Positions 5,693-19,696 of a stretch of DNA of 35,031 nucleotides are shown in pieces. This stretch comes from Acidobacteriota bacterium (lineage in GTDB: Bacteria; Acidobacteriota; UBA4820): assembly GCA_029559035.1 (NCBI GenBank), contig JAKQCT010000015.1:1-35031 (forward strand), given 5' to 3'. A model generated the notes under the pieces. That model was not told the DNA's origin and searched no databases. It saw only the letters and a program-made list of their open reading frames with translations. A program made the translations under genes and the position numbers. Position 1 is the first letter of the stretch, and each line of letters starts with the position of its first letter.

Positions 5693-7765
5693 ATGGGCAA
5701 TGTCAGAGAAAAATCGACCTCGACCCCGGCCCCCGGGCAGAAAAATCGGGGGGTGATCCTGGCTTTTCTGTGTCTCGTCCTCGCGTCGGCCACATTCATT
5801 TGCTACTGGCCGGTAACGACGATGCCTTTCGTTCAGTGGGACGACCCCGACTATGTCTTCGAGAACCCTCACGTCCGCAGTGGACTGACGGCGGATTCCG
5901 CTGCCTGGGCTTTCCGTTCGATCGAATACGCCAACTGGCATCCCATAACCTGGCTTTCCCACATGCTGGATGTCGAGATGTTCGGCCTCGACGCGGGAAA
6001 GCATCACCGGACCAGCCTGATCTTTCATGTCGTCAACGTACTGCTCCTTTTCTTTCTGGTTCTCAGGATAACTGAATCTCTCAGGTCCGGCACGCTCGTG
6101 GCGGCGCTTTTCGCCCTGCATCCCCTCCATGTCGAATCTGTAGCCTGGATATCGGAGCGCAAGGACCTTTTATGCGCGATGTTCTGGTTCCTTGCGATCA
6201 TCGCCTGGCTGCGTTTTGCCGATTCCAGAAAGCCTCTTTGGTATCTTCTGACCCTTGGGGCTTTCTCAGCCGGCCTGATGTCAAAACCGATGATCGTGAC
6301 TTTCCCCTTCACCCTCATGCTGCTCGATATCTGGCCGCTGGGGCGCTTCCCGATGAAAATGGGGCGGTTCGCCGGCAGGCTATTCCCGCTCGTCCTTGAA
6401 AAGACCCCTTTTTTCCTGCTTTCGGCGGTATCCGGCATCGTCGCGTTCGTGGCTCAGAAAAGCACTGGAGCCGTCCAGTCCATGGAGATCATTTCTCTTT
6501 CCAACAGGCTTGCAAACGCGATTTGGGCCTACTGCGCCTACATGGTGAAAATGATCTTCCCGTCGGGGCTTGCCGCTTTTTATCCCTACGCGCCAAGACC
6601 GTTAGTGTCAGTTGCCGTTATCGGATCTTTCCTTGTTTTGGCTGGAATAACGATGTTCGTCCTCCTGAATCGGGAAAAAAAGCCTTACATTGCATTCGGT
6701 TGGCTGTGGTTCCTGGGCACTCTGGTCCCCGTGATCGGCATCGTTCAGATCGGGGGCCAATCCATGGCCGACCGTTACACTTATGTCCCCCTGACTGGAC
6801 TCTTCGTAATTGCCGCCGTGGCTCTTGACGAAATTATAAGAACATTCCCGAGGATCCGGGTGTCGGTTACTATTGGTTCCCTGCTTCTTATTCTTCCTCT
6901 CTTCGCCGCCACAAGGGTGCAGCTTGGGTACTGGGAAGGCGACAAGGAAATTTGGGAACGCGCCGCCGCCGTGACTAGGAATAATTTCGTCTCGGAAAAC
7001 AATCTAGGCTGCTATTACCTGGAGCGCGGCGAAACGGAGGAGGCTTTAACTCGATTCAATGCTGCTTCCGAGTATAACCCCGGGTATGCCGACGCTTGGA
7101 CGAACAAGGGAAAAGCCCTCATGAAACTGGGCGAGAAAGAAAAAGCTTTAGACAGTTTTAAAACGGCCGTTCAACTCGCTCCTCAAAACGCGGACGCGCT
7201 GCTCAATTACGGAGACGCTTTGGACGAAGAGGGCCGCGTCGAGGAAGCGCTCCATCAGTACGAGCGGTCTTTAACGATCAATCCCGGCTCGTCAGAGGTC
7301 TTGGACCGCATAGGCATCGCCCTGGGAAAATTGAACCGCCTTCCCGAGTCCGTGGAGTGGCTGAAAAGAGCCGCCGGAGCCGACCCGACATCCTCAAAGA
7401 TCGAGAACGACCTCGCGGTGGCGCTCGATCACTCCGGCAGGACCGACGAGGCCATCGAACATTTCCGACGCTCACTCGAAATCGACCCCGGATATTCCAG
7501 AGGCTGGTACAACATGGCGTTGACGCTCGCGAGGGCCGGCCGGTTATCGGATGCCGAGGAGGCGTTCCGCGAGGCGCTGAAGATCGAGCCCGACATGGCA
7601 GAAGCCCGCTATTACCTCGGCGCCACCCTGATAAAAGATAAAAGATACAGGGAAGCGTGGGAGGAATACCTGACGCTGGAACAGACCCATCCCGGCTACG
7701 AGCAGACGAGGGCCAATCTCGAAAAGCTCAATGCCATGCTTGGCTCCGAGCAGACTACGCCGTGA
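5693..7765 (+). CDS. TMTC-like multispan membrane protein with C-terminal TPR repeats
   Basis: Polytopic membrane protein of about 690 residues. The N-terminal half (about 20-410) has roughly ten hydrophobic helices. It carries the signature of the bacterial/TMTC-type GT-C-like family: a first-loop WDDPDYV motif, NWHPITWLSHMLD, and ALHPLHVESVAWISERKD. The C-terminal third (about 430-680) is about seven tandem tetratricopeptide repeats. Eukaryotic TMTC proteins are O-mannosyltransferases (GT105) that use a lipid-linked sugar; the bacterial homologues are mostly uncharacterised, so a sugar-transferase role in the envelope is an inference. I start at the ATG at 5693, just before a basic stretch and TM1, because upstream frame sequence is repeat DNA. 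The ribosome-binding site (GGCAGG) is weak. It has no operon partner. Confidence 0.8.
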   Translation: MGNVREKSTSTPAPGQKNRGVILAFLCLVLASATFICYWPVTTMPFVQWDDPDYVFENPHVRSGLTADSAAWAFRSIEYANWHPITWLSHMLDVEMFGLDAGKHHRTSLIFHVVNVLLLFFLVLRITESLRSGTLVAALFALHPLHVESVAWISERKDLLCAMFWFLAIIAWLRFADSRKPLWYLLTLGAFSAGLMSKPMIVTFPFTLMLLDIWPLGRFPMKMGRFAGRLFPLVLEKTPFFLLSAVSGIVAFVAQKSTGAVQSMEIISLSNRLANAIWAYCAYMVKMIFPSGLAAFYPYAPRPLVSVAVIGSFLVLAGITMFVLLNREKKPYIAFGWLWFLGTLVPVIGIVQIGGQSMADRYTYVPLTGLFVIAAVALDEIIRTFPRIRVSVTIGSLLLILPLFAATRVQLGYWEGDKEIWERAAAVTRNNFVSENNLGCYYLERGETEEALTRFNAASEYNPGYADAWTNKGKALMKLGEKEKALDSFKTAVQLAPQNADALLNYGDALDEEGRVEEALHQYERSLTINPGSSEVLDRIGIALGKLNRLPESVEWLKRAAGADPTSSKIENDLAVALDHSGRTDEAIEHFRRSLEIDPGYSRGWYNMALTLARAGRLSDAEEAFREALKIEPDMAEARYYLGATLIKDKRYREAWEEYLTLEQTHPGYEQTRANLEKLNAMLGSEQTTP

Positions 7766-8005
7766 AGGCTGACGATAGAGCAGAAGAGCGGAAGAGCTGA
7801 AGTTCGATAGGGAAATCAATTCCACGATTAATAAACTTCCCACGGGCTTACGCCCGGGGTTTTCTCTGTCGCGAGCAAGCTCGTCCGCCTTTGGCGGAGG
7901 GACTCCATCCCACGAGCTCACGCACGGGGATTTTAGTAAGGAATTCATTAAAATTTTCACTTTTCAATCTTCAATTTTCAATGAAAGCGAAGCTTGCAGC
8001 TCGCA
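7764..8005. repeat. Dispersed repeat copy interrupted by mini-hairpins
   Basis: The plus strand carries the 'gctgaag ... gggaaat ... attcca' unit (about 7776-7825) and the AT-rich 'ttcacttttcaatcttcaat' unit (about 7957-7981). Between them are several short inverted repeats: CGGGC-TTAC-GCCCG at 7843-7856, CGAGC/GCTCG at 7872-7883 and a perfect TCCGCC-TTT-GGCGGA at 7884-7898. The phrase 'cccacgggcttacgcc' recurs in altered form near 7910. No gene is visible. Confidence 0.6.
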
Positions 8006-8006
8006 T

Positions 8007-8720
8007 CTACTCCCCCCCGCCGAAAGTTTTTTCGTATTGCTCCCTATCGTGAAGAGCCGGGGTTTCCCGGGTGATGGTATAGCCGTCTATCAGGCATGAG
8101 GGTTCTCCTTCCGCGTTGAAAACATATACCGCCCCGGAAGGAAAATTCTCCTGCGGCCAGGCTCTTTCTCCGAACTCCGCCTCTATCTCTTCCACGGTGG
8201 GGATGGAACCTGATCTTTCCTTGTCCCGTTCGATCCACGATCGTTTTAACATATCCATTTTGTTGAAGCTGTTGGAGATCATCCCGCTCCAAGCGCGCCA
8301 TTCGGAATCGTCGAGACGCTCCCGAACCTGTTCAGGGTTCAGCATCGCTTCGAGGAATTCTCTCGGATCGCGTGATGTGTCCTTTTTCCACTCTTCCGCG
8401 AAACCGATTATCTCCCTCGGAGTTTTCCCGTCAAACCTGAAGGCAAGCTCCTCGAGTTGTTTCTCCTCTACTCCACTGCCGGGAAGGTTTTTCTGAATGA
8501 TCGCCATGGGGCCTACGGCGACAAGTTCTAGCGCTTCCGTGAACTTGTTCCTCTCGTCATCGTCCTTTATCGCCCTGGTGATTTTCAGGATGCTCTCCTC
8601 GTATTCCTTCATGTTCGATGCCTTTATCTTCATCTCCATCGGATCCTGCTTCGAACAGCCCGACATCAAGATCAGGCAAGTCAGGACAAAGGAAAGCAGA
8701 TGCGCGGAAAATCTCTTCAT
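8007..8720 (-). CDS. Predicted lipoprotein, DUF6694-like
   Basis: Protein of 237 residues with a lipoprotein signal peptide: a basic start, a hydrophobic stretch and Cys22 after MSG. The mature part is charged and mostly helical. The segment around residues 36-100, with regularly spaced KITRAI, RNKFTEALELVAV and a DGKTPREIIGFAEEW stretch, resembles the small DUF6694 lipoproteins of proteobacteria; I judge this by eye only. The C-terminal half (about 100-237) is longer than that family normally has and ends in a small beta-like part (GAVYVFNAEGE). It is flanked on both sides by repeat DNA and has no operon partner. Function unknown; attachment to a membrane is the only safe inference. Confidence 0.7.
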   Translation of the reverse strand: MKRFSAHLLSFVLTCLILMSGCSKQDPMEMKIKASNMKEYEESILKITRAIKDDDERNKFTEALELVAVGPMAIIQKNLPGSGVEEKQLEELAFRFDGKTPREIIGFAEEWKKDTSRDPREFLEAMLNPEQVRERLDDSEWRAWSGMISNSFNKMDMLKRSWIERDKERSGSIPTVEEIEAEFGERAWPQENFPSGAVYVFNAEGEPSCLIDGYTITRETPALHDREQYEKTFGGGE

Positions 8721-9054
8721 TGCGGTTCCTCCCTATTTCTTCAGTCCGCCTTCAAAGAATGCCTTCATGCCAATAGCTTACACCCGCAGCGGTTCATTAT
8801 CCAGAGCTGAAGGCTGACGAGAGAGCTGAAGAGCGGAAGCGCTGAAGCTCATTAAGGAAATGAATACCACCGATTTCAAATTTGAAATTTAATTTTTAAA
8901 ATGCAGGCGCAGCCTGCCAGGCTGAAGTTCAATAAGGAAGGGAATTCCACAATTGTCATATTTTCAATTTAGAATTTGAAATTTAATATGAAAGCTCAGC
9001 TTGCTTACCCCTCCCCATTTGCATTGTATTAAAAGCCGTTTTATCCTTATATGG
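8721..9054. other. Intergenic region made largely of repeat copies
   Basis: Between divergent genes. Two adjacent copies of the dispersed repeat lie at about 8805-8920 and 8921-9006, with a GCAGGC-GCA-GCCTGC hairpin (8903-8917) between them. The first 80 bases hold the ribosome-binding site of the minus-strand lipoprotein. A TTG-initiated frame from 9001 is an extension of the next gene into the repeat. No promoter stands out. Confidence 0.55.
8805..9006. repeat. Two tandem copies of the dispersed composite repeat
   Basis: The first copy has 'gctgaagagcggaagcgctg', then 'attaaggaaatgaatacc', then 'ttcaaatttgaaattta', and ends in the triloop hairpin at 8903-8917. The second copy starts with 'gctgaagttcaataaggaag', then 'ggaattccac', then 'ttttcaatttagaatttg', and ends with an AAGCTCAGCTT inverted repeat at about 8991-9001. 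Confidence 0.65.
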
Positions 9055-11505
9055 ATGAAGAAGCGGTGGCTGAAATTCGTCATACCTGTTTTGAGCGTCC
9101 TGTCGGTGGCGGGATACCTGCTGCTGGTGAATCCCCTTCTCGTCGATTCGCTGAACCTGAGGGAGTTCGACCGCACGGAGCTGAACGGCAAGGCGCTGGA
9201 GATAGCCTCGTCCCTGCTTGGCGAGGAGAAGCAGTTCCGCGTCAAGGAATCTATAACGGCAGACATGAACCTGCTGAAGAGCCTGGAAAGAAGCATCGGG
9301 CTCAAATCGGAGGCGGAGATCGTCTCGACGAAGCTTCCGGTCCAGATCTACACCGCCTCCTTCTTCCCCCGGGAAGGCAAGGACAGGCTCGGACTTTCCA
9401 ACGAAACACCGGTCCTGACCGTCAAGATAGACTCGCACGGCGGGGTTGCATCCCTCACCTTCAGGGACCTGGACGACAAGGACAACAAGCCGGTCTCATC
9501 CTCCGAAGCGGGAGGGAAGATCAAAAGGCTGGCGTCTCTGCTCAGCCTCGACCCGTCCACTCTCACCCAGGTCCAGCCGCAGGACATCGACAAGGAGGAA
9601 TGGGTCAACATCGGCGGAAAACCGCCCTCGCAGGGGGAGAAGGAGAGCGGAGAGTCCCTCGCGCGGGCCGAGCAGGAATTCATGTTCAACGAGAGGATCG
9701 AGGGAGTTCCGCTCGCCTCCTATACTCACAATTTCAGCTTCACGAGGAACGAGGTGGAGTATTCGAGGAACCTGCTGTTCAAGAAGGCGCTCTTCAACGA
9801 AGGCAGCAGCGGAGCGATCGGGTTTCTCGCCATAGTGACATGGTTCGCCATAGGCCTCCTGGGGTTGACGATATTCGGCCTGAAGATCAGGCGGGACGAG
9901 ATCGACTGGAGCCATTATTTCAGGTTCTCCTGCTTCGTGGCGGTCCTGACCTTCCTGACGGTCTCCTTCAGCGAAGGGGCTTTTACCGTCCTGAACTTCC
10001 TCGGGTCGCTTATCGTCGGGTTTTTCATAGGCTTCGGGCTTGGCCTGGTTTTCGCCGTGGCGGAGTCGAAAACGAGGGAGAACCACTCCGACACGCTGGC
10101 GGTCTCTGACGCGCTTTTCGGGGCCAACTTCAAGATCCGCGAGTTCGGCGGACTGCTCCTTTCGAGCTTTGCCTACGGCGGACTCTTCTTCATGATGCCC
10201 CTTGCCGCTTACATATTCAGCAGTTTCCACGAAAAGACGAGGCTCGTGATATGGACAGCAAACCCGATAGAGATAAGCGGCGTCATGCCCGTCACGATAC
10301 TGCTCCGTTCGATCGTCCAGCCGTCGCTTTACGCGTTCCTTCTTTCCGCGCCGATCTTCGGGATACTGGCTTCGCTTGTCTGCCAGAGGTTCCCGGGGAA
10401 GAGGGGGGCGATAGCGGTTTCCGCCATTTTCGCGGTGCTCTGCCTCTACCAGCTCGACACTACTCCCGCCGTCGTCTGGTTCATACTGCTTTTCTCGGCG
10501 AGCTTCCTTCTGTGCGTTCTATGGAAGGACGAAGGCTTCCCCGGCGTCCTTCTTTCGATATTCATCGCCCTCAGCCTGCAGAGGGCTTTCCTGCTGGTCC
10601 TCGCTAAGGATTCCCTCTTCGCCTTCGTCGGGCTGGTGATACTGGTCTTCTGGCTCTTCGTCTTCATCCTGGCGGTCTATCTCCTGAGGAAGGGCAAGCC
10701 CGTTTCCAAGATGGCGCCGTACGAACCGAAATACCTGAAGCGGATGAAGGAGAAGGAGCGGTTCGAGAGGGAGCTGGAGATCGCGAAGCACCTTCAGGAA
10801 AAGCTTCTGCCGAAGAACACGCCGGACCTCGAAAAGTTCGAGATCGCGACCCTTTGCGAGCCGGCCAACGAGGTCGGCGGAGACTATTTCGACTTCCTCT
10901 CGCTCGAGGGCGGCAAGATGCTGGTCTTCCTCGGCGACGTTTCGGGCAAGGGTATCAGGGCGGCGTTCTACATGACACTCGCCAAGGGGCTCCTGCACGG
11001 CTCGTTCAACCTGTGCAAGGACCACCTGGAACTGCTGACTCTTCTCAACAAGAGGTTCGGCGGGCTCTCGGAGGAGGGAGTGTTCCTGACGCTGATTACT
11101 CTCACGCTGGACACGGAGACGGGAGAAGTCCTGCTATCCTCCGCCGGCCACAACCCTCCCCTCCTTTTCAAGAAGGACACCGTCTGGTCTGTCCCGTCGA
11201 GAGGCCTCGTCATCGGCCCTATGCCCGAAGAGATTCTCGTGAAGAGCCTGAAGGACTTCAAGTTCAGGATGGAAGAGGGGGACGTCCTCCTGCTTTACAC
11301 GGACGGCGTCACCGAGGCTATGGACCACCACATGGAGGAGTACGGTACGGACAGGCTGAAGAAGGTCTTCCATGAGAGCGTGGACAAGCCCGCAGGCGAG
11401 ATCGTCAACTCGATAAGGAAGTCCGTCCTGGATCATACGAAGGGATTCACTCAGAGCGACGACCTGACGATCCTCGTCCTGAAAGCCAAGAAGGGCGCCG
11501 GCTGA
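9055..11505 (+). CDS. Membrane-anchored SpoIIE/PP2C-type serine phosphatase
   Basis: Protein of about 816 residues. One N-terminal transmembrane helix (about 8-27) is followed by an extracytoplasmic region of roughly 230 residues, then a cluster of about 8-10 membrane helices (about 255-555), a short helical linker (KRMKEKERFERELEIAKHLQ) and a C-terminal SpoIIE-type PP2C phosphatase domain (about 585-815). The domain shows the metal-binding acidic motifs GGDYFDF, GDVSGKGI, SAGHNPP, LLYTDGVTEA and SDDLT. This architecture is typical of stress or partner-switching phosphatases acting on an anti-sigma-factor antagonist, but no such partner is encoded next to it. I start at ATG 9055 because the earlier TTG lies in repeat DNA; there is no clear Shine-Dalgarno. 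It heads a tight operon with the next two genes. Confidence 0.85.
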   Translation: MKKRWLKFVIPVLSVLSVAGYLLLVNPLLVDSLNLREFDRTELNGKALEIASSLLGEEKQFRVKESITADMNLLKSLERSIGLKSEAEIVSTKLPVQIYTASFFPREGKDRLGLSNETPVLTVKIDSHGGVASLTFRDLDDKDNKPVSSSEAGGKIKRLASLLSLDPSTLTQVQPQDIDKEEWVNIGGKPPSQGEKESGESLARAEQEFMFNERIEGVPLASYTHNFSFTRNEVEYSRNLLFKKALFNEGSSGAIGFLAIVTWFAIGLLGLTIFGLKIRRDEIDWSHYFRFSCFVAVLTFLTVSFSEGAFTVLNFLGSLIVGFFIGFGLGLVFAVAESKTRENHSDTLAVSDALFGANFKIREFGGLLLSSFAYGGLFFMMPLAAYIFSSFHEKTRLVIWTANPIEISGVMPVTILLRSIVQPSLYAFLLSAPIFGILASLVCQRFPGKRGAIAVSAIFAVLCLYQLDTTPAVVWFILLFSASFLLCVLWKDEGFPGVLLSIFIALSLQRAFLLVLAKDSLFAFVGLVILVFWLFVFILAVYLLRKGKPVSKMAPYEPKYLKRMKEKERFERELEIAKHLQEKLLPKNTPDLEKFEIATLCEPANEVGGDYFDFLSLEGGKMLVFLGDVSGKGIRAAFYMTLAKGLLHGSFNLCKDHLELLTLLNKRFGGLSEEGVFLTLITLTLDTETGEVLLSSAGHNPPLLFKKDTVWSVPSRGLVIGPMPEEILVKSLKDFKFRMEEGDVLLLYTDGVTEAMDHHMEEYGTDRLKKVFHESVDKPAGEIVNSIRKSVLDHTKGFTQSDDLTILVLKAKKGAG

Positions 11506-11509
11506 CCTT

Positions 11510-12712
11510 ATGGGCGGGCCGGGCGCATCCTCCTGGACTAAATTCCTTAGAGGAAAAATAGAAGTTTTACAGCCCGAAGGAGGGCCGAAGTTCTCCATCG
11601 ATTCGGTCGTCCTCGCGGGCTTCAGCCACATCAGGGAGGGAGAGGATGTCCTCGACCTCGGGACGGGGACGGGGGTGATACCGGCCATGTTGAAGGCACA
11701 TTTCCATCCGTGCTTTATCGCGGGGATCGAGATAAACGAGAACCTGCGCGAGTGCGCCGCCGCCACCGCCGAGAGGAACGGCCTCGACCCCGGCGGGATG
11801 ATCCTCGGGGACATCCGCGATCAAAAGGTTCTTCAGGGCAGGAAGTTCGGCGTGGTCGTCTCGAACCCGCCATTCTTCGAGACCCACTCGGGAAGGCTGA
11901 GCGTGAGGGAGGACAGGAGGCTCACGCGCCACAGGGAGGCGCTTTCCCTCGTGGAGCTCTTCAGTGCCGGCGCGAGGTTCATGAAAGAGAAAGGGCGAAT
12001 GAACTTCATCCTCCCCTTCTCCGAATCTGACAAGGCGGTAAAGGCCATGAATGAAGCGGGCCTTCACCCGCGCCTGGCGAGAGCCGTCTGCGACTCCCCC
12101 GCGGGCGAGCCTAAGAGGGTGCTCATGCAGGCCGTCAAAGAAAGGCTTCCCTTCATCTGGCTCCCGCCGCTGATCCTGAAGAACGGAGACGGATCATACG
12201 GCGACGAGGTCAAGAGATGCCTGGAAGACATTCCTTTCGTCCCGTCCCCCGCCTTCTTCTGCGACGCGATGGTGGGGAGGCTGGCAAAGTACCTGCGCTT
12301 CGCAGGGTTCGACGCGGCTTACCTCAGGGACGCGGACGACGACTGGCTGATCGGAGAGTGCGAGAGGAGCTCGAGGATACTGGTCACGAGGGACCGCCCG
12401 CTGATCGCGAGGATGAAAAAGCGGGGCCTCGCCTGCTTCGAACCGGAAAGCGTCTTCCCGAAGGAGCAGTTCAGGGAATTGACCGCCGTTCATCCCTTCG
12501 ATGGCAGCTCTCCGAGGAGATGCCTTCTCTGCAACGCCGCCGTGATGAAGCTTGAAAGGGAAAAGGCGAGAGGGATCGTCCCCTACTACACCTTCAGGAC
12601 GAAAAGGGACTTTTTTATTTGCCCGTCTTGTGGCAAACTCACATGGGGAGGAACCCATCTTTCCCGCTTCAGAAAAGAGATACTCGAAGGCAACGACAGG
12701 GAGGACAGATGA
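11510..12712 (+). CDS. Fusion: TrmN6-like tRNA/RNA methyltransferase plus Mut7-C RNase domain
   Basis: Residues about 1-235 are a class I N6-adenine/amine methyltransferase like TrmN6 (YfiC), which methylates A37 of tRNA1(Val). They show the SAM loop DLGTGTGVIPAML (near 46) and the catalytic motif NPPFF starting at Asn119. Residues about 248-395 are a Mut7-C (DUF82) domain: CDAMVGRLAKYLRFAGFD with Asp252, the DADDD acidic cluster, VTRDRPL, and a C-terminal zinc-ribbon from CLLC and CPSC. Mut7-C is a PIN-like RNase fold. The gene starts four bases after the phosphatase stop and its stop overlaps the pyrE start, so the frame is continuous and the fusion looks genuine. Both parts probably act on RNA; the exact targets are unknown. 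Confidence 0.85.
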   Translation: MGGPGASSWTKFLRGKIEVLQPEGGPKFSIDSVVLAGFSHIREGEDVLDLGTGTGVIPAMLKAHFHPCFIAGIEINENLRECAAATAERNGLDPGGMILGDIRDQKVLQGRKFGVVVSNPPFFETHSGRLSVREDRRLTRHREALSLVELFSAGARFMKEKGRMNFILPFSESDKAVKAMNEAGLHPRLARAVCDSPAGEPKRVLMQAVKERLPFIWLPPLILKNGDGSYGDEVKRCLEDIPFVPSPAFFCDAMVGRLAKYLRFAGFDAAYLRDADDDWLIGECERSSRILVTRDRPLIARMKKRGLACFEPESVFPKEQFRELTAVHPFDGSSPRRCLLCNAAVMKLEREKARGIVPYYTFRTKRDFFICPSCGKLTWGGTHLSRFRKEILEGNDREDR

Positions 12713-13251
12713 CCGACAGAGAAAAGCTCAAGGACCTGCTCAAGGAAAGATCGCTGAAGATCGGGGATTTCGTCCTCGCTTCCGGCAAAAGGAGCAACTA
12801 CTATTTCGATTCGAAGCTGACGACGCTTACCGCCGAGGGTGCGTACCTCACCGGCAAATGCTTCTTCGACGTGGTCAGGAATGAAAAGATAGAGGCCGAT
12901 TACATCGGCGGGATGACGCTCGGGTCGGACCCGATCGTCACCGCGGCCGCGCTCGTTTCGAGGATCGAGGGAAAACCGATCGACGCCTTCATCGTCAGGA
13001 AAGAGGAAAAGGGCCACGGCACGAAGAAATGGATCGAAGGCCCCGCCGAAACCGGCAAGAGGACGATCATAGTCGACGACGTCGTGACGACCGGAGGATC
13101 GACCTTCAAGGCGATAGAGAAGGCCGAGGAGTTCGGACTGAAGGTGGTCGCGGTTATCGCGCTTCTCGACAGGGAAGAGGGAGGCGGCGAGGCCCTGTCC
13201 GCAAAGTATCCCTTCTATCCGATCGTCAGAAAAAGCGAGATCATGGGATGA
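12709..13251 (+). CDS. pyrE: Orotate phosphoribosyltransferase
   Basis: Enzyme of pyrimidine synthesis that joins orotate and PRPP to give OMP, in the cytoplasm. It has 180 residues, the usual size for the short bacterial form. The type I phosphoribosyltransferase motif IIVDDVVTTGGS lies near residue 123-134, and the YYFDSKLTTL segment and the flexible loop with RKEEKGHGTKKWIEG are typical of PyrE. The ATG at 12709 overlaps the stop of the preceding gene (ATGA) and is preceded by GGGAGG, which decides this start over the frame's earlier in-frame codons. It is the last gene of the phosphatase-methyltransferase-pyrE operon. Confidence 0.95.
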   Translation: MTDREKLKDLLKERSLKIGDFVLASGKRSNYYFDSKLTTLTAEGAYLTGKCFFDVVRNEKIEADYIGGMTLGSDPIVTAAALVSRIEGKPIDAFIVRKEEKGHGTKKWIEGPAETGKRTIIVDDVVTTGGSTFKAIEKAEEFGLKVVAVIALLDREEGGGEALSAKYPFYPIVRKSEIMG

Positions 13252-16575: not shown

Positions 16576-18048
16576 TTACAGCTCTTTTTTCAAATGGCTT
16601 ATTATCGTCTTCAGGACCTTGATCCTGGCGAAGTTCTTGTCCTCGGCCTCGACGACGGTCCACGGCGCGTAGGGCATCGAGGTCTTCTCGAACATCTCTA
16701 TGGCCGATGCTTCGTAGGAATCCCACTTCGAGCGGTTGCGCCAGTCCTCCTCGGTGATCTTGTACTGCTTGTACGGGGTGATCTCCCTCTCCTTGAACCT
16801 CCTGAGCTGTTCCTTGGCGGTGATGGAGAGATAGAATTTGAGCACGATGATACCGGAATCGGAAAGCTCCTTCTCGAACTCGTTGATCTCGGAGTAGGCC
16901 CTCATCCATTCGTCATCCGTGCAGAATCCCTCGATCTTCTCGACGAGCACCCTGCCGTACCACGACCTGTCGTAAACGGTCACCTTGTCCCTTCTCGGGA
17001 GGTTGCGCCAGAAGCGCCAGAGGTACGGCCGCGCCTTTTCCTCGTCCGTGGGAGCCGCAACGGACATCACCCTGTAGTCCTTCGCGTTGAGGGCTTGCGT
17101 GACCCTCCTGATCGCCCCGCCCTTGCCCGCGGCGTCCGCGCCTTCGAAGACCAGGATGAGCGACCTGTCCTTGCTCTGCATCCTGTTTATCAGGCGGTGG
17201 AACTCGGCCTGCGCCTCGGGAAGCTCCTTGTCGTACTTCTTCTCGTCCAGTTTCCTCGTGTAATCGAGCGTCCTGAAGATGTTGCTCTGAGGCGGCTTGA
17301 AAGCCCTCGGCTTCAGAGGCGGCTTCTCGGCCTTCTCCTTGTCGGCGAAGCCTCTCTTGAGCTCCGCGATGAGCGTGCGTGCGACGGTCGTGTTCCTGTA
17401 CCTGTCGTCTTCCGCCTCGACGATGTGCCACGGGGCGTCCTTGGTGTTGGTCCTTCCGAGCGCCTCTTCGGAGACCTCCCTGAACCTGCCGTATTTCTTG
17501 ACGAACTTCCAGTCGTTCTTCGTCACGCGCCAGCTCTGGAGAGGGTCCTTTTCGAGCTTCTTCATGCTCTTGACTAGGGTCTTCTCCTTCACGTGGAGCC
17601 AGAACTTGACGAGCGTGACCCCTTCCCTCCTCAGCATCGTTTCGAAAAAGACCGCCTTGTCGAGAGCCTCGTCAAACTCCGATCTTTTCATCCCGCCGAA
17701 GGTCCTTTCGACTATGGGCCTCGTGTACCATGAACCCAGGAGTATCGTCATCCTTCCCTTCGGGGGTATCATCCTCCAGAAGCGCCACATCGGCGGCCTT
17801 TCGCGTTCCTCGTCTGTTGGTGCGTCGAGGGCGTGGGTCTCTATCCCGCGCGCGTCGAGCCATTCGAGCAGCTGGTTGACCGTCTCCGTCTTGCCCGCGC
17901 CTTCGACCCCGCCTATTATCACGATGGCGGAAGTCTTCGAGGCGGCAAGCTCCTTCTGGACAGCCAGGATATCCTCCCGAAGCTTGGCCAGCCCTTTCTT
18001 ATAGACACTTTTAGAGATCTTGTTCCCGACTTCAGCGGTTTCGAACAT
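16576..18048 (-). CDS. pap: Polyphosphate:AMP phosphotransferase (two-domain PPK2)
   Basis: Cytoplasmic enzyme of the PPK2 family that moves phosphate from polyphosphate to AMP to give ADP. It has 490 residues, two tandem PPK2 domains and the usual length for PAP. The N-terminal domain has the Walker A loop GGVEGAGKT at residues 46-54; the C-terminal domain has FEGADAAGKGG with Lys309. Each is followed by a DAPTDEE- or AAPTDEE-type lid motif and a PxxWRFWR segment. In known PAPs the C-terminal copy is the catalytic one; both copies keep their P-loop Lys here. It is a single minus-strand gene with its own terminator, 25 bases downstream of the GNAT-aminotransferase gene, so the two may be co-transcribed. 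Confidence 0.92.
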   Translation of the reverse strand: MFETAEVGNKISKSVYKKGLAKLREDILAVQKELAASKTSAIVIIGGVEGAGKTETVNQLLEWLDARGIETHALDAPTDEERERPPMWRFWRMIPPKGRMTILLGSWYTRPIVERTFGGMKRSEFDEALDKAVFFETMLRREGVTLVKFWLHVKEKTLVKSMKKLEKDPLQSWRVTKNDWKFVKKYGRFREVSEEALGRTNTKDAPWHIVEAEDDRYRNTTVARTLIAELKRGFADKEKAEKPPLKPRAFKPPQSNIFRTLDYTRKLDEKKYDKELPEAQAEFHRLINRMQSKDRSLILVFEGADAAGKGGAIRRVTQALNAKDYRVMSVAAPTDEEKARPYLWRFWRNLPRRDKVTVYDRSWYGRVLVEKIEGFCTDDEWMRAYSEINEFEKELSDSGIIVLKFYLSITAKEQLRRFKEREITPYKQYKITEEDWRNRSKWDSYEASAIEMFEKTSMPYAPWTVVEAEDKNFARIKVLKTIISHLKKEL

Positions 18049-18073: not shown

Positions 18074-19696
18074 TCAAGCGGTCTTGTTTACAATTTTTCC
18101 TATAATTCCGGGCAAAGCCTCTATTTCGTTCTTTTTGATCTCGCCGAGGATGCAGATCTGGATCCAGTTGCGCGCGAGCAGGTACTCGCTCATGTAGCTG
18201 ATGAGGTATCCCGTGCGCGCGAGCTCGTCGCCGATCTCCTTCGAGGATATCCCCTTGGGGATGACTATCGTGAAGACCGCGGGACTGGATTCCTCCCTGG
18301 GGACGAGGACCTTCAGGCCGTTCTCCGCGAGCCCCGACCTGACAACTTGGGACATCTCCTCGATGTCGTGGATCTTCTTGGTCAGGTCTATCCTGGAAAG
18401 CGCCGCCGCGAGCGCCGCGAAAAGGTTGGACGACTGGGTATAGGGAAGGCCGTGCTTCTCGGCGTACCTTCCGAGGTCGAGGTACCTCGGGAGTTTGCCG
18501 GGCCGGCTCTTGACCTCCCCGTTGTAGAAGACGAACGAAAGGCCGGGATAGCCGCCGACCGCCTTGCCGCTGAGGGATGTGGCGAGATCGACTCTGTCGA
18601 GTTTCATGGGGATGGTCGCGAAGGAGCTGATGCAGTCGACAGCGACGGCTACGCCCCTCTGCTTGCAGATGTCCGTGATCCTGTCAAGGTCGTGCAGGAC
18701 GCCGGTCGAAGTTTCGCAGTGGGTAAAGAGGCACCACTTGATCGCCTTGTCCCCGTCGAGTTTCTTCTCGACCTCTTCCGCGGTGATTTTCCGGCCCCAT
18801 TCCTTCTTTATCGTCGAGAAATCGAGCCTGAAGCGCTCTGCGTGGTCGATGAGCCTCTCGCCGAACTCGCCGTCGGCCAGGACCAGGCCCCTGCCGTCGA
18901 CGAGCGATAGCTGCCCCGTCATCACGTCGTTGGCGAGCGTCCCGCTGCCGAGGAATATCTCGACCTGCTTCGCCCCCGAGATCTCGAGGAGGAGCCTCTT
19001 GACCCGGTCGAAGGAGTCCATGAAGCCCTTCGCCCTGGTCGATATGGCGGGGCCGCCGATCGCGCTTTTGACGGACGCGTCCATCTCCACGGGCCCCGGA
19101 AGGAGGTTGCACGGCTCTTTCAGCTCTTCGTGCTTCTGTGCCATCTCCTCCAGGAGCACCTTGGCTTCCTGCCCCAGCCTCGAGAAGGTCTCCCGGAACG
19201 CCTCCAGCGTAAGGTACATGGGCTGGTAGGGCGCTTCCGCCGTCCCGACAAGTGGGCCGAACGGGACGAAGCCGATGTGCTTGTAGAGCTTTAGCTGGCG
19301 GGTCGTGCCTGAAATGACGGCCGTGTCGAATCCCTGGCCGAGGCAGTATTCCGCGGTCTTCTCCATCAGGTTCTTGAAGATGACGCCGTTCCTCGCTTCG
19401 GGCTTCACCGCGAGGAGTCGGATCTCGCAAACTTTCCTGTTGCGGGGCATCAGCTCGTCGAGGTTGTCTATCTTCTGGTCGAGCGAGAAGGGCCTCTGCC
19501 CCCTGACGGTTATCATTCCGACGACAGACTTTCCCCTGGCGCAGATGATGTAGGTGTTCTCCTTGTGGAACTTGTCTATCAGGCGCTGGTCGGGGGTCGA
19601 CTGGTGCTGGGGTATCTCCTCGACGAAAGTCTTATAGTTAAGTTTGTGTATCTCGTCAAATTCCCAAGGCTCGGAAGCTACTTTGAAAACCAGCAT
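18074..19696 (-). CDS. Fusion: GNAT/FeeM-like acyltransferase plus class V PLP aminotransferase
   Basis: One 540-residue frame. Residues 1-180 are a GNAT-fold domain: a FVEEIPQHQ segment like the N-acyl amino acid synthase (FeeM)/PEP-CTERM acyltransferase branch, VVGMITVRG, CEIRLLAVKPEARNG and an LYKHIGFVPFGP end strand. Residues about 205-540 are a fold-type I aminotransferase of class V: LLPGPVEM start, GSGTLANDV, THCETSTGVLHDL, VDCISSF and the PLP lysine Lys378 in SLSGKAVGG. The closest look-alikes are alanine/serine-glyoxylate or 2-aminoethylphosphonate aminotransferases. GGAG lies eight bases before the ATG. Both halves look intact. The reaction is unknown; making and then acylating (or the reverse) a small amine is an inference. 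Confidence 0.85.
   Translation of the reverse strand: MLVFKVASEPWEFDEIHKLNYKTFVEEIPQHQSTPDQRLIDKFHKENTYIICARGKSVVGMITVRGQRPFSLDQKIDNLDELMPRNRKVCEIRLLAVKPEARNGVIFKNLMEKTAEYCLGQGFDTAVISGTTRQLKLYKHIGFVPFGPLVGTAEAPYQPMYLTLEAFRETFSRLGQEAKVLLEEMAQKHEELKEPCNLLPGPVEMDASVKSAIGGPAISTRAKGFMDSFDRVKRLLLEISGAKQVEIFLGSGTLANDVMTGQLSLVDGRGLVLADGEFGERLIDHAERFRLDFSTIKKEWGRKITAEEVEKKLDGDKAIKWCLFTHCETSTGVLHDLDRITDICKQRGVAVAVDCISSFATIPMKLDRVDLATSLSGKAVGGYPGLSFVFYNGEVKSRPGKLPRYLDLGRYAEKHGLPYTQSSNLFAALAAALSRIDLTKKIHDIEEMSQVVRSGLAENGLKVLVPREESSPAVFTIVIPKGISSKEIGDELARTGYLISYMSEYLLARNWIQICILGEIKKNEIEALPGIIGKIVNKTA

Follow-up and report, generated by a model that had tools for sequence, protein, structure and literature searches.

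A single gene of an Acidobacteriota genome encodes, in one chain, a COG4123/TrmN6-like methyltransferase followed by a Mut7-C domain. This fusion is genuine, not an artefact, and has been passed down throughout an order of uncultured bacteria. Our preferred explanation, whose chances we put at about even, is that the product is a single-chain RNA adenine-N6 methyltransferase, acting most likely on tRNA A37, in which Mut7-C would bind RNA and so keep hold of the substrate. In what follows, the window is the whole stretch of DNA analysed (35 031 nt), and the coordinates of the gene, its parts and its immediate neighbours are all on the + strand.

The fusion gene (11510–12712) is a single unbroken frame of 400 amino acids, running from ATG to TGA and kept in eight other genomes. 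As the original prediction had claimed, both domains lie in this uninterrupted frame, where Pfam and NCBIfam find them, and the operon borders are tight: the upstream gene, for a SpoIIE-type phosphatase (9001–11505), a conserved neighbour outside the protein itself, stops at 11505, and the ATG of a downstream pyrE-like phosphoribosyltransferase gene (12709–13251) shares bases with the fusion's stop codon in the string ATGA (12709–12712). The methyltransferase domain (residues 15–238; 11552–12223) has full-length PDB matches in 3lpm and 7wm5/7wm6, and the class-I methyltransferase family MTS (PF05175) matches residues 43–132 above its cut-off (E 6.3e-10). The Mut7-C domain (PF01927, residues 248–389; 12251–12676) is matched with E 8.7e-33 and 113.9 bits, against a Pfam gathering cut-off of 23.3 bits, over positions 2–144 of the 146-position profile; used as a profile, this half also matches the worm MUT-7 domain 8q66 (E 5e-6). 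It is the sole Mut7-C of the source genome. Both domains are thus complete and joined end to end through a linker of ∼10 residues (about residues 239–247; 12224–12250). An AlphaFold2 model made from the single sequence had a mean pLDDT of 32.9 and gave no confident structure.

The key residues are where the original prediction placed them, namely N119-P-P-F-F, D252, D274-A-D-D-D278, C338/C341 and C371/C374. In the methyltransferase half these belong to an NPPF motif IV of the N6-adenine type (residues 119–122; 11864–11875), of which N119–P121 are invariant in fused and separate copies. The predicted SAM-binding motif I, DLGTGTG (residues 49–55; 11654–11674), is intact at the level of sequence, where nothing points to a methyltransferase half deprived of SAM binding. 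In the Mut7-C half they comprise Asp252 (12263–12265), the cluster DADDD (residues 274–278; 12329–12343) and the four-cysteine zinc ribbon with its pairs C338-LL-C341 (12521–12532) and C371-PS-C374 (12620–12631); to these we add the TRD at residues 293–295 (12386–12394), with Asp295.

Conservation across the fusion proteins extends to both halves. They are only 33–63% identical per half, yet their motif residues are retained in both; mean pairwise identity is 52% for Mut7-C versus 44% for the methyltransferase. Where sequence is present, D49, G51, G53, E74, D101, N119, P120, P121 and R140 are invariant in the methyltransferase, as are D252, D277, D295, C338, C341, C371 and C374 in Mut7-C. Among separate Mut7-C proteins the matching Asp and Cys positions, that of Asp277 included, are invariant or nearly so, and the fused Mut7-C does not, therefore, look degenerate. 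Spacing is conserved as well: the linker varies by one residue only, and Glu233 and Asp252 are 19 or 20 residues apart in all fusion proteins. Near the C-terminus (residues 378–383; window 12641–12658) the sequence LTW or ITW marks the fusion proteins, a substitution specific to them: Y, F or L precedes that Trp in most separate Mut7-C proteins.

The fusion is found in 9 of the 13 genomes analysed from the order (G000, G002, G003, G005, G006, G007, G008, G010 and G011), which span two families and six genera. In each carrier the matched stretches cross the join without a stop, the reported stops being the ends of the proteins, although contig ends cut three of the nine copies (G003, G008 and G011). 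A fusion confined to this contig, with a frameshift at the join, was accordingly not found, and recurrence in other genomes puts the joining far beyond chance. The order SpoIIE-type phosphatase, fusion, pyrE is kept wherever contigs reach, a housekeeping-like setting; G005 has a LarB-like (AIRC) gene between phosphatase and fusion. The four genomes without the fusion also lack an intact pyrE (no match in G001, G004 and G009; a truncated fragment in G012), which makes absence of the locus from these assemblies the probable cause. Gene loss, which we considered for this patchy absence, is less likely for the same reason. In trees of each half, which took in six complete fusion proteins, the fusion proteins form one branch (100/99 for the methyltransferase, 86/94 for Mut7-C); this is consistent with one origin of the fusion.

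Beyond the order, none of the matches listed from 396 genomes of the phylum spans both halves. The original prediction holds for the identity of the domains and for how rare the architecture is, only separate proteins being found elsewhere in the phylum among the matches listed. No match to plasmids or phages covered 80% of the query, and viral contigs, when scanned, yielded two weak methyltransferase fragments but no fusion; one further scan of genome contigs returned only two Phycisphaerae Mut7-C proteins.

An AIRC-domain (LarB-like) gene adjoins not only the fusion in G005 but also a separate Mut7-C gene in G043 (L039:1565–2386, L050:3816–4562). Elsewhere in the window, a 540-aa frame at 18077–19696 (–) combines FeeM/GNAT-type acyltransferase and class-V aminotransferase domains, and a 490-aa frame at 16579–18048 (–) holds two PPK2 (polyphosphate kinase 2) stretches.

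By motif and best family match, we class the methyltransferase half as COG4123-like, not as TrmN itself. Its best NCBIfam match is TrmN (NF047853; residues 27–236, 71 bits), as for all four fusion proteins scanned (71–102 bits). The equivalog cut-off is 350 bits, well above these scores; since only 47 bits go to a Listeria protein that carries the annotation tRNA1(Val) methyltransferase, this threshold seems narrow and does not decide membership. The structural matches 7wm5/7wm6 are Mycoplasma TrmM. The Escherichia coli enzyme acts on tRNA-Val(UAC) with A37, and the source genome encodes a tRNA of this type, with A at position 37. Since A37 is present in most tRNAs of the genome, this does not single out a particular tRNA; judging from the TrmN6 family, the substrate is probably tRNA A37. 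As an observation on the assembly, the 16S gene binned with G000 (contig C68, L081:184–1720) is up to 91% identical to those of Betaproteobacteria (Caballeronia, Niveibacterium); C68 may be a foreign contig, and tRNAs from it need care.

A 2006 study placed Mut7-C with the PIN RNases and proposed nuclease activity from that similarity (PMC1779556). The 2024 crystal structure is TOPRIM-like, has no significant similarity to PIN, and was accompanied by a demonstration of RNA binding, reported for worm and human Mut7-C proteins (PMC11347159). Tightly bound RNA came along when Rv0579 was purified, and whether this protein has RNase activity could not be established (PMC7052010); the studies consulted demonstrate no nuclease activity for a prokaryotic Mut7-C (PMC7052010, PMC11347159). 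The 'nuclease fold' of the original prediction is hence uncertain, agreeing with the 2006 placement but not with the 2024 structure.

Under our preferred explanation, the N-terminal half, from the COG4123 group (TrmN6/YabB/TrmM), would use SAM to methylate adenine at N6, most likely at A37 of a tRNA. With its TOPRIM-like core and its zinc ribbon, the C-terminal Mut7-C would grip the substrate RNA, and the short linker would keep the spacing between the two halves almost constant. Metal-dependent cleavage by the conserved Asp triad might also occur but would be secondary. Methylation, its substrate and the holding of RNA are inferred; what the sequences show directly is intact motifs in both halves, one branch in the trees, conservation throughout the order, a linker of nearly constant length and a conserved gene order. 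We favour holding over modifying and cutting because the 2024 structure did not confirm the PIN similarity and the question of RNase activity in Rv0579 could not be settled. Against a role in mere holding stands the invariance of the acidic triad, which is easier to explain by catalysis than by binding alone.

That triad sustains the strongest rival, to which we would give roughly one chance in four: a bifunctional protein that both modifies and cleaves, with Mut7-C cutting either the unmethylated or the methylated RNAs, in tRNA quality control. The fusion proteins all keep Asp252, Asp277 and Asp295, and separate bacterial copies keep them always or almost always, which counts in favour of modify-and-cut. 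When the worm domain is aligned, moreover, the residue at the position of Asp295 is not Asp (TVP), and the animal, RNA-binding version of Mut7-C may have lost a catalysis that bacteria kept. There is also a parallel in COG4123 methyltransferases paired with GIY-YIG nucleases (PMC1564403). The absence, in the studies consulted, of a demonstrated prokaryotic Mut7-C nuclease, Rv0579 included (PMC7052010), and the loss of structural support for a PIN fold (PMC11347159) weigh on the other side. The more specific proposal, that Mut7-C cleaves tRNA or other RNA according to whether its own methyltransferase half has set the N6-methyl mark, as a modify-or-destroy check, we consider improbable.

Two independent housekeeping enzymes might instead have been joined for co-expression only, sharing no substrate. 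Elsewhere in the phylum the separate methyltransferase and Mut7-C genes are on different contigs wherever both are among the matches listed, with no linked pair, a point in favour of this reading. Nor does their co-occurrence argue for a partnership. Separate TrmN-type and Mut7-C genes occur together in 55 genomes of the phylum (odds ratio 15.6, p 2e-19; 20/21 by family), but the unrelated control gene rtcB is about equally associated, with odds ratios of 14.3 with TrmN and 11.1 with Mut7-C; within rtcB-positive genomes the TrmN/Mut7-C odds ratio is 7.8, in a statistic that ignores relatedness. Co-occurrence thus mostly reflects lineage, and we discarded it as support for a functional link. 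(In one genome, G228, the rtcB RNA ligase gene and a separate Mut7-C gene are ∼250 bases apart on contig C260, on opposite strands, at 6662–7957 and 8206–8631.) Mere co-expression nonetheless sits poorly with the short, near-constant linker and with the persistence of the fusion in all genomes whose assemblies include the locus, and we regard it as unlikely. Least credible, and very improbable in our view, is a restriction-modification-like defence protein directed at DNA or phage RNA, as proposed in 2006 for COG4123/GIY-YIG: it could draw on the arrangement of methyltransferase and nuclease-like domain (PMC1564403) and on the methyltransferase half weakly matching type II methyltransferases, but the fusion is one branch in both trees with a fixed position beside pyrE, was not found in viral contigs, phages or plasmids, and gave PADLOC matches to the methyltransferase only, none to the Mut7-C half.

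Mut7-C is ancient, occurring in bacteria, archaea and animals, and the fusion offers a testable lead on the role of this poorly understood domain. Conserved joining to a known methyltransferase family suggests a substrate class for it, RNA adenines and probably tRNA position 37, and makes the RNA-binding and nuclease hypotheses testable on one protein.

Among known systems, the N-terminal half shares full length, motif I and NPPF/Y with TrmN6/YfiC/YabB (COG4123), the tRNA1(Val) A37-N6 methyltransferases; the known ones are stand-alone, whereas the fusion carries Mut7-C and falls below the NCBI equivalog cut-off. The ubiquitin-like/Mut7-C proteins Rv0579 and TM_0779 (PMC1779556) likewise have a C-terminal Mut7-C with zinc ribbon behind another domain, but in them that N-terminal domain is of the beta-grasp type rather than an enzyme. 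In animal MUT-7/EXD3 (8q66; PMC11347159) an RNA enzyme also ends in a Mut7-C, which contributes RNA binding; there, however, the partner is a DEDDy exonuclease, and the worm domain has a zinc-ribbon insertion and no Asp matching Asp295.

The original prediction knew of no characterised enzyme joined in this way. For this pair of partners that stands, our literature search having turned up no description of a TrmN6-type methyltransferase/Mut7-C fusion; for the kind of arrangement there is a precedent, since COG4123 methyltransferases fused to or beside GIY-YIG nucleases, with fusions in Lactobacillales, were described in 2006 (PMC1564403), and we see the two-gene pair in four Bacillota loci. 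As far as we searched (one phylum, plasmids, phages and viral contigs), the arrangement is thus of a known kind and the Mut7-C variant is new. The fusion itself has no Pfam match to GIY-YIG, and its neighbours are SpoIIE and pyrE. The partner domain being unrelated to GIY-YIG, the two represent separate joining events, and in this phylum no linked two-gene stage is seen among the matches listed. In both, a methyltransferase is joined N-terminally to a small nucleic-acid-acting domain; Mut7-C would be the second such partner for COG4123, after GIY-YIG, which suggests that the pairing is a useful one.
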